A stretch of DNA of 51,749 nt, from contig CANHCT010000001.1 in the NCBI GenBank assembly GCA_947459175.1, positions 1-51,749 on the forward strand, in the 5' to 3' direction. Shown piece after piece: positions 24,828 to 35,287 of this stretch. The stretch is from Hymenobacteraceae bacterium. GTDB taxonomy: Bacteria > Bacteroidota > Bacteroidia > Cytophagales > Flexibacteraceae. The position numbers and the translations under genes are program-made. Each line of letters starts with the position of its first letter. Position 1 is the stretch's first letter. The notes beneath the pieces are model-generated. The model was not told the DNA's origin, made no database searches, and worked only from the letters and a program-made list of their open reading frames with translations.

Positions 24828-25655
24828 TTAATTGTTGATAATCAACCGCTTCACCTGAGTTGCCTTGCCTTCGGTTACTTTGATGAGGTAAACACCCTTT
24901 TTCAAGTCTCCCAGATCCAGATTCATTTTGTTTCCCGAGAGGGGGAAAGTCAACATCTTGTTGCCCAATATGTTAAATACTTCAACCTGTGCCTGGGCAG
25001 AAAACCCCGGTGCTGAAAGCAACACCCTGCCCGAACTGGGATTGGGGGCAATCTGAAGTTCGGCTTGTGTTTGCAATCCTTTTCCGGAAGTAAGATTGTT
25101 GGCTGCAAAATCATCAAAAGAAGCAAACCAGGAACCCGCAGTCCGCTTGGTCACCAGTTTTACTTTTACATTGTTGCCCTCGAAACCATTGATAGGCAGT
25201 GAAAAATTTACCATAGCCGTGCCGCTGGAAGGGTAGCTCGTCAACAGATTCTGAAGAAATTGGTAGGTGCTTCCATTGTCTGTTGAGACCCAGGCGGTCA
25301 CCACATCTCCCGCTGCCGGACTGTGGTTGAATCCGGCATTTATGCCAATATAAGAGTCCAGGAGTCTGCTCTTAAAGTTCAGCACAGCATTGGCAGCCAA
25401 TGGCCCGAAAGCCGGCGTGATGAGCGAATCACCTGATTTGCTGGGTGCAAGGGATATTTCAGCTACTTTGTTATTCGTGTCGGGCAAAAACCCCCTGAGA
25501 TATACCTTAAAACCGCCGGCTCCGCTGGTTTGCCAGCCACCGCTAAGGGTTCCTCCATTGCCTGAATAGCTTTGAAAATTTTCGGTCCAGATGGTTTGGG
25601 CGTTGGCGCTTAGGCCTGCCAAAAGGAGTAAAATGATGAAGCCTAATTTATTCAT
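24828..25655 (-). CDS. T9SS type A sorting domain protein with choice-of-anchor J-like domain
   Basis: 275 residues, signal peptide ending at SANAQ. Residues about 20-190 form a jelly-roll-like domain of the choice-of-anchor J kind (IWTENFQSYSGNGG, AVLNFKSRLLDSYIG, VVTAWVSTDNGSTYQFLQN, SWFASFDDFAANNL). The C-terminal 80 residues are the type A sorting domain: IAPNPSSGRVLLSAPG, VEVFNILGNKML, LDLGDLKKGVYLIKV, KATQVKRLIINN. The protein is thus exported by the type IX system and probably held on the surface or released. No catalytic domain is seen; it may bind carbohydrate or another surface ligand. Confidence 0.88.
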   Translation of the reverse strand: MNKLGFIILLLLAGLSANAQTIWTENFQSYSGNGGTLSGGWQTSGAGGFKVYLRGFLPDTNNKVAEISLAPSKSGDSLITPAFGPLAANAVLNFKSRLLDSYIGINAGFNHSPAAGDVVTAWVSTDNGSTYQFLQNLLTSYPSSGTAMVNFSLPINGFEGNNVKVKLVTKRTAGSWFASFDDFAANNLTSGKGLQTQAELQIAPNPSSGRVLLSAPGFSAQAQVEVFNILGNKMLTFPLSGNKMNLDLGDLKKGVYLIKVTEGKATQVKRLIINN

Positions 25656-28519: not shown

Positions 28520-29782
28520 ATGGACATGTCCATTTCGAATCATGCCCCCGGTAAATCAAGAGAAAGGCCGTTATCAGGGCTTGTTCTCACCGGATTTTTG
28601 CTTTGCCTGTGGCTGGCCTTGCTTTGGTTGAAAGTATGTCTGGAACCGGTTCATTATCAAACCGTTGATGGTGAAAATTATTTGCAACTGGCCAACAAAA
28701 TCATTGCAGGGAAACCTCTGGTGATTGATGGTTTGAAAAATCAAAACGGCAGGGTATTTTCTCCGTTTCCTCCCGGCTATCCGGCATTGCTCTGCCTCGG
28801 TATTCAAACGGGTGCTTTTTTGCCGCCTCAGCTGGTGGTACATGGATTTTTATTTCTGATAATCAGTATATTATGGTGGTATAAGCGTTTGCCTTTATTG
28901 CCTTTGGCTTGCTGGTTTTTTACCGATACAGCGTTGGAGCTCGCTTGCTATCCCTGGTCAGAGTGGTCGTTTACAGCGGTAACCATTTTGCTGCTGATGG
29001 TCTGGCATAGGTGGGAATCTGCTCAGCAGCCGGCCATGATGCTGGTTTGCCTCGGCCTCTGGCTGTTCCTTTTCTCCATCCGCTATGCCGGTGTTTTCTT
29101 TTTCCTGTTTCTGGCCATTCGTGTCCTTACCCGGCCGCCGGCAATTTCTATATGGATAACTTTCTTTTTTCCCGGTCTGATTTTTGGGCTGATGACCGCC
29201 ATTTGGTTTTGGGTGGAATTGCAGGTTTTCGGCCAAATCACCGGCGGCGATCGTTATGCCAACCAAGACTCCGCAGCCGGGCTTTGGCATTCGCTTTGGA
29301 CCGCTTCTTTGGACCAGTTGTTGTGGTTTAAAGATGCCTCAGGCAGTTCCCGTATTTCATTTTTTTGCGGAATAACGGCGCAGGCCGTCATGGTTTTTTG
29401 GTTTTTGGTCATTTCCAAAAGGAAGCCGACAGGGGAAAGCAATCGGGTTTACGATGACCCACCATTTTCATTGTTGCTCATGCAGGCCGGGTTGGCTTAT
29501 CTGCTCTTTATGGTTCCGGTTCGCTGGTATTTCTATTTCGCTGAGTGGTATGATTTCCGCCTTCTGGGGCCGGGTTTTTTGATGTTGCTGCTGGGTGTTT
29601 TTCTTCGTGCAGACCGGATTTTCAAACCGGCAGGACGAGGGATCCTTTTTATTGTTTTTCTGATGGCAGCAGCTTTTTTTACCCTTCCGAAGGCATCATT
29701 GATAATGCATATGCAGGAGAAAATATGGCTGCAGACCAAACCCGTTTTCGGGCTTATCCCTTCAAAATCATTACACAAGTAA
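28520..29782 (+). CDS. Polytopic membrane protein, possible GT-C glycosyltransferase
   Basis: 420 residues with about ten hydrophobic segments. After the first helix comes VDGENYLQLANKI (Asp50, Glu52, Tyr54), which resembles the Asp-containing first periplasmic loop of GT-C glycosyltransferases (GT39/ArnT types). It is followed by GRVFSPFPPGYPALLCLGI, also like the P-x-G-Y-P segment of those enzymes. The remaining helices are rich in Trp, Phe and Leu (FLFLIISILWWYKRLPLLPL, MVCLGLWLFLFSIRYAGVFF). If correct it would move a sugar from a lipid carrier to an acceptor in the periplasm. No partner glycosylation genes are adjacent. It may instead be an unclassified membrane protein. Confidence 0.7.
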   Translation: MDMSISNHAPGKSRERPLSGLVLTGFLLCLWLALLWLKVCLEPVHYQTVDGENYLQLANKIIAGKPLVIDGLKNQNGRVFSPFPPGYPALLCLGIQTGAFLPPQLVVHGFLFLIISILWWYKRLPLLPLACWFFTDTALELACYPWSEWSFTAVTILLLMVWHRWESAQQPAMMLVCLGLWLFLFSIRYAGVFFFLFLAIRVLTRPPAISIWITFFFPGLIFGLMTAIWFWVELQVFGQITGGDRYANQDSAAGLWHSLWTASLDQLLWFKDASGSSRISFFCGITAQAVMVFWFLVISKRKPTGESNRVYDDPPFSLLLMQAGLAYLLFMVPVRWYFYFAEWYDFRLLGPGFLMLLLGVFLRADRIFKPAGRGILFIVFLMAAAFFTLPKASLIMHMQEKIWLQTKPVFGLIPSKSLHK

Positions 29783-29847: not shown

Positions 29848-31596
29848 ATGTTTTTCAGGTGTTGTATTTGGCTTTTATTGCTTGGAATGGGATTTTTATG
29901 CCCAGTTGGTACTGCACAGGGTCAATTGATTGTAAAAAAAACCAAAGGCTCGAACCTGAACCAAAAAACCCCGAGACCACCCAAAAAGGAGAGAAAAAGA
30001 AGAAAAAAAAGGCAAAACCGGATTGCCTCCGACAAATCGGGCAATACGGTAGCCAAAGTGGACAAAGTCTACTTACTCAAGCGAAAAAATGCTCAAACAT
30101 CTGAGTTTGAGCCACCTGAAGTAGCAGTGGCTCCGGCTCAGAAAGAATTGGTACAAAACAACAACAAGGTCATTACCCGGGATAAAAAGGGGAATACTGT
30201 TGCCCATGTGGACAAGCAATATCTTTTAAGACGAAAGAGTTTTCAAAATTCAGATTTTGAGCCCGGTGTTTCCGAAAGGCCTGAGGTCAGAAAGGAAAGA
30301 GCAAAAAATGTAAACAAGATTATCACCCGCGACAAAGCCGGCAACACTGTGGCGCATGTGGATAAGCAATATTTGTTGCGGCGGAAGAGTTTTCAAAATT
30401 CAGATTATGAGCCTCAGATTACAGAAAGGCCTGAGGTCAGAAAGGAAAGAGCAAAAAATGTAAACAAGATTATCACCCGCGACAAAGCCGGCAACACTGT
30501 GGCACATGTGGACAAGCAATATCTGTTGCGGAGAAAAAGTTTTGAGAATTCAGACTTTGAACCCGGCATCGTGCAGCATCCCTATGAAAAGAAACTACGG
30601 GCCAGAGTTACCAACTCAAAAATAAGCGAAGATGCAGCGGGAAATACCCTTCCAAAGGAATCTCAGAAAGAGATAATGAGGAAAAAAAGTGCACAGGCAT
30701 CTGCTTTTGTTCCTTCAACATCAAAGACTTCTGAGGAGAGGAAGAAGATTATGAGGAATAACTCCGAGAAAATATCCAACTCTGCTATGGGCAATACCAT
30801 TTCAAGAGAAGCCCAAAAAGAAATGATGCGAAAAAAAAGTAAATCGGCTTCTGAATTTGAGCCCGGAACCACCCTCGGTCGTGAAGATCACCTTAAATTG
30901 CTGAAAAAGCGATCTAAGGAAATGTCTGAATTCGAGCAGGGTACTACCCTGGGTCGTGAGGACCAAAGGGAAATAATGCGAAAAAAGAATAGGGAAACCA
31001 CACAATCCACAAGAGGAAATACCATTGCAAGAGCGGATTACAAGAAAATGCTTCAAAAGCAAAATGTAAAAATAAGCGGTTCAGTTAAAGGAAATACCAT
31101 GAACCGCGAAGCTTACCGCAATATGCTCAAATCCAAATCAGAGAAGTTTTCCGGATTCGAGCAGGAACTTGTCATTACCCGGGAGGAAAAAATCAAGCGA
31201 ATGCGACAAAAAAGTCTCTCTATTGAAAATTACAATGCCGGCTACCTCAATTCTGCGGCAGAGCGCAAGGCAAGAATTCGCTCTTTCTTTTTTCCGGGTC
31301 AGTATCAGGCCAATACTCCTGCTGAAAAGCTTAAAAAAATGCGGTCCGTTTCGGGCGAAATTGCCAGCTTCGAAGGACGCATCAAAAGGAGAGAATATGA
31401 AAGAAAAATGCATCCCTCCGCCCGGCATCTGGGCCGATTTTCCCTCCAAAATATGGAAGACCGGGAGGCATTCCGCGAAAAGCAAACCAGGCGAATGGCC
31501 AAAACCAGGAAAGGCGACTTGCCGGCATATCTCAGAGAAACCGTAAGAAAGCCCCGATACGACAAAAAAACAGAAAAGGGGCTTTGGGCTGAATAA
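29848..31596 (+). CDS. Secreted basic protein built of 25-residue tandem repeats, unknown function
   Basis: 582 residues. A signal peptide (MFFRCCIWLLLLGMGF, ending near AQGQ) is followed by a Lys/Arg-rich stretch (PKKERKRRKKRQ). Residues 65-489 are seventeen consecutive 25-residue units with no insertion or deletion. The first units alternate between GNTVAHVDKQYLLRRKSFQN-SDFEP and a partner such as GVSERPEVRKERAKNVNKII-TRDKA. The later ones converge on GNT-[x5]-KxMxRKKSxxxSxFEP. A C-terminal stretch of about 93 residues follows (KMHPSARHLGRFSL, then KPRYDKKTEKGLWAE). The protein is very rich in Lys and Arg and has no Cys outside the signal peptide. I recognise no family. It could be an extended fibre or a polyanion-binding surface protein; both are guesses. 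Upstream is the GT-C-like gene and downstream PiT, all on the plus strand. Confidence 0.85.
   Translation: MFFRCCIWLLLLGMGFLCPVGTAQGQLIVKKTKGSNLNQKTPRPPKKERKRRKKRQNRIASDKSGNTVAKVDKVYLLKRKNAQTSEFEPPEVAVAPAQKELVQNNNKVITRDKKGNTVAHVDKQYLLRRKSFQNSDFEPGVSERPEVRKERAKNVNKIITRDKAGNTVAHVDKQYLLRRKSFQNSDYEPQITERPEVRKERAKNVNKIITRDKAGNTVAHVDKQYLLRRKSFENSDFEPGIVQHPYEKKLRARVTNSKISEDAAGNTLPKESQKEIMRKKSAQASAFVPSTSKTSEERKKIMRNNSEKISNSAMGNTISREAQKEMMRKKSKSASEFEPGTTLGREDHLKLLKKRSKEMSEFEQGTTLGREDQREIMRKKNRETTQSTRGNTIARADYKKMLQKQNVKISGSVKGNTMNREAYRNMLKSKSEKFSGFEQELVITREEKIKRMRQKSLSIENYNAGYLNSAAERKARIRSFFFPGQYQANTPAEKLKKMRSVSGEIASFEGRIKRREYERKMHPSARHLGRFSLQNMEDREAFREKQTRRMAKTRKGDLPAYLRETVRKPRYDKKTEKGLWAE
30040..31314 (+). 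repeat. 75-bp in-frame repeat array, 17 units
   Basis: The coding DNA of residues 65-489 of the basic secreted protein. Every unit is 25 codons long, beginning with GNT, GTT or a variant and ending near FEP. The period does not drift across 1275 bp, showing strong structural selection on unit length even where sequence has diverged. Confidence 0.85.
30274..30503 (+). repeat. Near-recent 150-bp tandem duplication with 80-bp identical core
   Basis: Bases 30274-30353 and 30424-30503 are identical by eye over 80 bp, exactly 150 bp apart, equal to two 25-residue units. This marks a recent duplication or gene-conversion event inside the array. Confidence 0.8.
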
Positions 31597-33697: not shown

Positions 33698-35287
33698 TTA
33701 CTCTTTTACAAGAGTGACAGAATATCTGGTTTCACCGGTCAGTATCTGGAGTTTATACAAGCCGACAGGCTGGTCTTGCAAGGATATTTTCAGGCTTTCT
33801 TCCAGGGATTCAAAAGATTGAAGCAGCCTTCCCTGCATCGAAAAAATCCGGATGGTTTTCTTTTTTCCACCCGGGATAGGGATAAGGAAGTCTTCTTTTG
33901 AGGGATTTGGCTGAACCCGAATTGGCTCCTCTTTCACTTTTTCACCGGCCGAAACAAATGAACAGATGATTTGCATTACCAAATCATTGGTTTCTGCAGA
34001 AAAGCCAGCTTCATCCGAAATCAGGGGCGGGTCTGCGTTCTGGCCTCCTGTAGAGTCGGTGGTGGCGAGGTTGGCCGAAGTCATTGTCAAAGTGTTGCCC
34101 TGGCAGTTGTTCAGCAGCGAAAAGGTGGACAGCCGTGCCACGAGTCCGGCTCCTGAGGGATTGCCAAATGCGTAGGTCAATGCATTGGCCATCAGGTAAT
34201 TTCCGCTCAGGCTGAGGCCAGTGAAGGTAGTGGAATTGGTGTCGCTTGCCCCGAATGCAACAGACTCCAGTATAGTTCCGGCATTGTCAATCCGGGAAAT
34301 AAATCCATTGCGCCTTGTGTTTGCCGTATTGTTTTTATCCGTAAATCCGGCTGCGATAATGTCTCCGGCTCCGGTAATGGCCAAATCCCAAATGCGGTCA
34401 CCGTTGGGTGTGCCAAAGGTTTTTGCCCAAATGTGATCTCCTGAGGACGAGATTTTTCCTATCACATTCTGGTTAGATCCGGTGGTTGATGTCACCCCGC
34501 CGTAAATTATCCCACCATCAATGTCCTTTTCAAAGTCATACAAAACCTGAGAGCCGCTTTGCTTTTTTCTTTTTGCCCAAATGATGTTCCCCAAAGAATC
34601 CACCCTTACGAAAAAAGGATCGAAGAGTGTGGAATTGGATCCGGTCTTCCAAGAATAGCCGCAAAGCAAGGCACCAGCCTCCGGCATTGGAATGACGGAC
34701 CGAAAGGCGTTGAAGTTGCCTTGTTTGTAGGCATTGGACCAAATTTCGTTGCCTTCAGAATCCAACCTGCAGGCAAAACCATTGCGGCTTCCCAGTCCTG
34801 CGAATGAGGCACCTGCAACCAAAATGTCGCCATTGTCCAATGCGGCCACCCCAAACGCCTCGTCATCATCGGGTGAAGAAATTCTTTTCGCCCATTCCAC
34901 ATCGCCGATGCTGTTGGTTTTTACCACAATGGCGTCGATGTACAGTCCATCCTGCCCGTCTGTCCAGCCGACTATGGCAAAGCCACCATCGCTGGTCAGG
35001 CAAAAGTTGTTCACGGCATCAATGCCCTGATGAAGCAGGACTTTCTGCCATATGATATTTCCTTCGGTATCGATTTTAGTAAGGGAAAAATTCGCCTCAG
35101 GCCCTTCATCCGCCTGTCCAACGAAAACGGTGCTTGCGTCCGGAAGGCTGATGTTTTTGGTAAATTCCCGAATGGCAGTATCGGAGGCAAGGGGGCTTTT
35201 TTTATACAATTTCAATCCTTGGGCAGCCGCAGAAAAACTGAATGCCAGGCAGAAAATAAACAGGTTGGTTTTTGATGCATGCTTCAT
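33698..35287 (-). CDS. T9SS type A sorting domain protein with beta-propeller-like repeats
   Basis: 529 residues, signal peptide ending at SAAAQ. Residues about 35-370 consist of repeated segments of 45-55 residues with the pattern D-x-x-G-x-x-x-W-x-K (IDTEGNIIWQKVLL, VDSLGNIIWAKRKKQ, ISSSGDHIWAKTFG) paired with DGGFAIVGWTDGQ, NGDILVAGASF and AGDIIAAGFTDK. This is typical of exported beta-propellers of the delta-60/SBBP kind. The C-terminal region VQPNPSKEDFLIPIP, IRIFSMQGRLLQSF and DQPVGLYKLQILTGETRYSV is a type A T9SS sorting domain. It is likely a surface or secreted protein of unknown ligand. Confidence 0.87.
   Translation of the reverse strand: MKHASKTNLFIFCLAFSFSAAAQGLKLYKKSPLASDTAIREFTKNISLPDASTVFVGQADEGPEANFSLTKIDTEGNIIWQKVLLHQGIDAVNNFCLTSDGGFAIVGWTDGQDGLYIDAIVVKTNSIGDVEWAKRISSPDDDEAFGVAALDNGDILVAGASFAGLGSRNGFACRLDSEGNEIWSNAYKQGNFNAFRSVIPMPEAGALLCGYSWKTGSNSTLFDPFFVRVDSLGNIIWAKRKKQSGSQVLYDFEKDIDGGIIYGGVTSTTGSNQNVIGKISSSGDHIWAKTFGTPNGDRIWDLAITGAGDIIAAGFTDKNNTANTRRNGFISRIDNAGTILESVAFGASDTNSTTFTGLSLSGNYLMANALTYAFGNPSGAGLVARLSTFSLLNNCQGNTLTMTSANLATTDSTGGQNADPPLISDEAGFSAETNDLVMQIICSFVSAGEKVKEEPIRVQPNPSKEDFLIPIPGGKKKTIRIFSMQGRLLQSFESLEESLKISLQDQPVGLYKLQILTGETRYSVTLVKE

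Follow-up and report, generated by a model that had tools for sequence, protein, structure and literature searches.

The repeat gene and its array

The window, i.e., the whole stretch of 51,749 nt analysed here (Hymenobacteraceae bacterium, contig CANHCT010000001.1), carries a genuine open reading frame of 582 codons (582 aa) on the plus strand at 29848-31596. It encodes a polybasic tandem-repeat protein, and the gene call is supported by the reading frame itself, by purifying selection on the C-terminal block of its homologues and by its single genomic copy. The features of the locus are:

28520..29782, plus strand: gene for a multi-pass membrane protein, upstream (cluster 11, a neighbour of the repeat gene shared by the window and L048, L049, L052 and L053)
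29848..31596, plus strand: polybasic repeat protein gene, 582 aa
29848..29925, plus strand: signal peptide, residues about 1-26 (MFFRCCIWLLLLGMGFLCPVGTAQGQ), assigned by sequence inspection
29926..30039, plus strand: Lys/Arg-rich lead-in, residues 27-64, from the sequence
30040..30639, plus strand: units 1-8, i.e., four 50-residue double units with types A and B alternating, residues 65-264, from the unit identity matrix
30640..31239, plus strand: units 9-16, diverged 25-residue units, residues 265-464, from the repeat analysis
31240..31593, plus strand: conserved C-terminal block, residues 465-582, from a gap-free 118-residue alignment within the genus and order-wide profile matches

The signal peptide and the Lys/Arg-rich lead-in proposed in the initial annotation are both visible in the sequence, and homologues have similar hydrophobic leaders ending in ..AQ. 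The leader of the window protein ends VGTAQGQ; there is no lipobox cysteine at its end and no cysteine after residue 30. The computed pI of the mature chain is 10.4 and its net charge +67, in agreement with the earlier description of a basic protein. A genome search found one copy in the organism's own genome.

The array consists of 16 consecutive 25-residue units (residues 65-464) without insertion or deletion. Self-identity was 0.46 at a shift of 50 residues, 0.38 at 100, and 0.18 at both 75 and 25, against a maximum of 0.13 at any shift in 500 shuffles. Pairs of 25-residue units match on average at 6.2 of 25 positions, compared with 1.7 in shuffled sequences (shuffle maximum 2.0). Units 1-8 alternate between two types, as had been claimed for the first units, and in effect form four 50-residue double units. 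The double units that begin at residues 115 and 165 share 92% of their amino acids and 87% of their nucleotides, and most of the DNA differences fall at third codon positions. Units 9-16 are more diverged and keep the 25-residue step; the GNT...RKKS pattern described for the later units was recovered there as GNT...(R/K)KK(S/N)...S.F.

Seventeen strict units (residues 65-489), followed by an unrelated C-terminal part of about 93 residues, had been reported initially. Sixteen of the units, up to residue 464, are gap-free and stand far above the shuffles, but the seventeenth (465-489) is marginal: it matches the other units at just 1-6 of 25 positions and lies within the block that is conserved to the C-terminus in related genomes. 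Nor is the C-terminal part wholly unrelated to the array, since a degenerate unit, 'NTPAEKLKKMRSVSGEIASFEG' (489-510), about two residues short, is found inside the C-terminal block.

A family with a constant C-terminus

Matches to the window protein were found in 11 of 59 genomes, the window genome included. With a profile of the C-terminus (A1), the family was detected in 75 of 291 genomes of Cytophagales, in 47 of 115 genera; matches fell at one place per genome, or at two within the same protein or site, and the family is single-copy per genome. In the class and phylum samples, profile matches occurred only in the order Cytophagales and none outside it. Named contigs carrying the family include Cytophaga, Sporocytophaga and Rhodocytophaga, together with many uncultured Cytophagales (Rhodocytophaga and Cytophaga are placed in Cytophagales by the NCBI taxonomy). 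The homologues with different unit counts that were expected in other Bacteroidota have been found, within Cytophagales. A contig titled Bifidobacterium breve (L110) also carries a family member, and is probably mislabelled or from a contaminated bin.

The window copy matches A1 with E 1.8e-38, a profile that contains it, and a separate profile, A4, with E 1.2e-10; A4 was built without the window copy. The family-defining C-terminal domain of ~95 residues, with its conserved G, P, Y, E and W, is present in the window protein, as are the other two family features, an export signal (by inspection) and Lys/Arg-rich tandem repeats. A pattern search based on the whole protein yielded no relatives among the genome contigs; alignment A2 offered no stretch conserved enough for such a search, and alignment A4 worked. 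The homologue of Cytophaga aurantiaca (L099, 333 aa) resembles the window protein in its signal peptide, Lys/Arg-rich repeats, single copy per genome and C-terminal motif (HPS, PrYD, E..IW), and differs from it in the sequence and length of its repeats (YxGDI type).

The window protein gave no match reaching the curated cut-off in Pfam, NCBIfam or PADLOC (the last including anti-phage defence models), and no credible match to a described repeat family in Pfam, NCBIfam or PHROGs. A match to PHROG 6670 (E 2.6e-7) was rejected, as no stretch passes alone and the score seems to add up over the repeats. Pfam had no match for any of 31 homologous C-termini, the C-terminal profile matched no PDB chain by sequence, and Foldseek with the C-terminal model returned only one fold match, at E 3.7 and from a weak model. 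Among open papers, none was found that describes the family. The earlier statement that no family could be recognised is thus borne out by the Pfam, NCBIfam, PHROGs, PADLOC and PDB searches; the family has no database entry or published description that we found, while secreted basic tandem-repeat proteins are already known as a kind.

The order-wide domain of ~95 residues (about 488-582 in the window protein, ending EKGLWAE) is part of the C-terminal block and keeps the pattern YxGxI...HPS...P.Y...KPrYDkrE..(I/L)W. The C-terminal E and W are invariant in 31 sequences, and G, P, P, P, E and W are invariant or nearly so. Within the genus, the block aligns over 118 residues without gaps in all copies reaching the C-terminus, and these are 66-69% identical to the window copy. 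Leaving out saturated dS values, comparison of L050 with L051 over this block gave dN 0.022 and dS 0.36 (dN/dS about 0.06), and the window with L050 gave dN 0.28 and dS 2.2 (dN/dS 0.13); the C-terminal block is under purifying selection. The genes of G003 and G004 are each broken within the array, with their parts on separate contigs (L052:13478-15088 plus L051:1-666, and L053 plus L050); the repeats probably disrupted the assembly there.

The repeats in front of this C-terminus vary. Across the family, the period ranges from 16 to 70 residues and total length from 220 to 1006. The period is 25/50 in the window, L048 and L049, and 51 in G003, with a 51-residue repeat also seen in G004. It is 26 in G006, G005 and G048, 20 in G012, 17 in G131, 38 in the G142 type, 43 in G025, 49 in G018 and 60 in G028; units of 16, 17, 18, 20, 26, 38, 43, 49, 52 or 60 residues occur in relatives that share the C-terminal domain. 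Among the closest relatives, two genomes of the window's genus have a 51-residue period, and a sister genus has 26. A step of exactly 25 residues characterises the window's genus at most. Units of type A show similarities of 0.95, 0.81, 0.68 and 0.81 within genomes and 0.37-0.69 between genomes. Units of one type are thus mostly more alike within than between genomes, i.e., they evolve in concert by tandem duplication or conversion, and unit length is constant because the units are homogenised within a genome by tandem duplication.

Gene neighbourhood

Thirty-nine loci were examined. The repeat gene lies downstream of a dehydrogenase E1 gene in 24 of these and upstream of a BrxC-like gene in 22, often followed by genes for an OsmC-like protein and an outer-membrane-like protein of ~240 residues, and by lipA. 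The E1-BrxC placement holds in most lineages outside the window's family and is a common, not a defining, family feature. In C. aurantiaca, the gene is found between E1 dehydrogenase and lipoprotein genes on one side and the BrxC gene on the other, unlike the arrangement in the window's genus. There, the repeat gene is beside genes for pyruvate kinase and a membrane protein, and the BrxC-OsmC-OMP block stands alone on another contig; the repeat gene has moved in this genus. The membrane protein gene (28520..29782) ends 66 bases before the repeat gene and is its neighbour in the window's genus only. Its multi-pass product of 420 residues has no Pfam match above cut-off, and the genus retains the gene in its place alongside pyruvate kinase and the repeat gene.

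A small lipoprotein gene (C..K..CPxY...TGLVKKK; alignment A3) is directly upstream of the repeat gene in 22 of the 39 loci. No such neighbour was detected in the f19 lineage, in the window's genus or in two further genera of the window's family (L054, L055), and the best candidate homologue in the window genome (E 0.009) was rejected. These CPxY lipoproteins, with their basic TGLVKKK tail, are themselves an undescribed family (L099:6034-6294, L060:8360-8635, L063:10520-10780 and others). The outer-membrane-like proteins of ~240 residues encoded between OsmC and lipA form a family conserved across Cytophagales (L099:8254-9003; cluster 4, L058-L087) and without a credible match in Pfam, NCBIfam or PDB. 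In the window, proteins with a type IX sorting domain (Por_Secre_tail) flank the region at 24831-25655 and 33701-35287, both on the minus strand.

Genome G121 has cleanly lost the repeat gene, and BrxC comes straight after E1. In G021, the site is occupied by a gene (L167:4387-4860) for a K-rich protein of 157 residues with a signal peptide and no repeats, possibly a shortened relative. The repeat gene is therefore conserved but dispensable. Both cases, along with the fast turnover of the repeats, would suit a selfish or neutral tandem-repeat gene that has no envelope function. The purifying selection on the C-terminus and the retention of the gene across the order as a single, often syntenic copy argue the other way, making this explanation very unlikely.

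Possible structure and role of the protein

The constant unit length with drifting sequence had been taken initially to mean a fixed structural rise per 25-residue unit, i.e., a regular solenoid or surface fibre. Solenoid repeat families include LRR, TPR, HEAT and similar, and the window's genus also has constant tandem units near 25 residues: sixteen drifted units in the window without insertion or deletion, and the 25/50 step again in L048 and L049. An AlphaFold2 model of the whole protein (9 sequences) places one helix of ~16 residues per unit in the later array, which would also suit a solenoid. However, its linkers are of low confidence and it contains no packed solenoid, with pLDDT 52.8 and pTM 0.17 from an alignment too shallow for disorder to be proved by it. 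The mean hydropathy and net charge of the array and C-terminus fall on the disordered side of the Uversky (charge-hydropathy) line, and the hydrophobic content is low (about 0.2). Unlike the solenoid families, the window protein has no Pfam repeat match, and unit length is not conserved in its family: the closest relatives have 26 or 51 residues, and other members with an unchanged C-terminus 16-70. Because unit length varies between relatives, the model lacks packing and the composition is on the disordered side, a fixed-rise solenoid is not supported. It was set aside as the leading interpretation because of the varying unit length and the quality of the model, and is quite unlikely. The window protein is probably mostly flexible.

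The C-terminal 100 residues, modelled separately by AlphaFold2 (31 sequences; pLDDT 72, pTM 0.36), form short helices and two tiny strands. A rival reading would make the product a type IX-secreted protein of the surface or matrix whose C-terminal sorting domain escaped recognition. Cargo proteins with the sorting domain PF18962 have the same architecture of signal peptide, variable body and conserved C-terminus, and cargo domains occur nearby in the same organism. However, no type IX sorting domain was matched in the window protein or in the 31 C-termini, and sorting domains sit on many proteins per genome, whereas the C-terminus of this family is on a single one. It is also basic and predicted to form short helices, not a beta sandwich. 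A type IX sorting domain was rejected on the missing match and the single occurrence, and export by this route is unlikely.

The reading that best accounts for these observations, tentative and less likely than not, is that the gene product is a periplasmic or outer-membrane-associated polybasic tether or scaffold, docking by its C-terminal motif and binding anionic envelope polymers. The protein would be exported by Sec to the periplasm or to the periplasmic side of the outer membrane; a periplasmic place is suggested because a leader is present but no lipobox, sorting domain or barrel. The C-terminal segment of ~95 residues would dock onto a single fixed partner; the small CPxY outer-membrane lipoprotein encoded just upstream in many relatives is a possible candidate through its gene position, seen in only about half of the loci. 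The repeats would serve as a flexible arm of many interchangeable units, each a short basic helix plus a GNT or YxGDI linker. Each unit may contact anionic envelope material weakly, e.g., peptidoglycan or outer-membrane lipids, as the charge of the chain suggests. The number of units would set contact strength and reach, and because these depend on unit number, the repeats could drift in length and sequence and be replaced through tandem duplication without any change at the docking end.

Consistent with such a tether are the export signal (seen by inspection), the basic composition, the variable repeats ahead of a constant C-terminus under purifying selection, the order-restricted single-copy distribution, the conserved neighbourhood and the lack of a T9SS sorting-domain match in 31 C-termini. 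Against it, the window's genus lacks the lipoprotein gene beside the repeat gene and has given up the common neighbourhood. The periplasmic tethers TolA and TonB offer a likeness, in a basic extended envelope chain with a conserved C-terminal docking end. The window protein differs in having a leader that looks cleavable and no sequence match to them, and in that no inner-membrane motor genes were recognised beside the repeat gene.

Cytophagales is an order with many gliding members, and a family of envelope proteins that is restricted to it and has no known function might belong to the gliding machinery, e.g., as a flexible element along a track in the periplasm. A GldJ profile gave matches in 284 of 291 genomes, all of them below the curated cut-off and too evenly spread to show a correlation. 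The repeat protein was not found in the listed f10 and f12 genomes, and no gld or spr gene was recognised beside the repeat gene; a role in gliding is distinctly unlikely. A wider form of the tether reading is improbable as it stands: an undescribed envelope system of Cytophagales, in which a small outer-membrane lipoprotein and a length-variable polybasic arm, docked by its constant C-terminal motif, would organise the periplasm, possibly as a link between outer membrane and cell wall or as a gliding track.

This is a single-copy family conserved in a large bacterial order, without a Pfam or NCBIfam entry, and it puts right the idea that repeats of constant length have to form a rigid solenoid. 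The lipoprotein encoded next to the repeat gene is a direct first candidate for its partner. Should the protein prove to be a flexible polybasic arm of the envelope, it would illustrate clearly how a docking motif can be conserved with a repeat arm free to vary in length and sequence.
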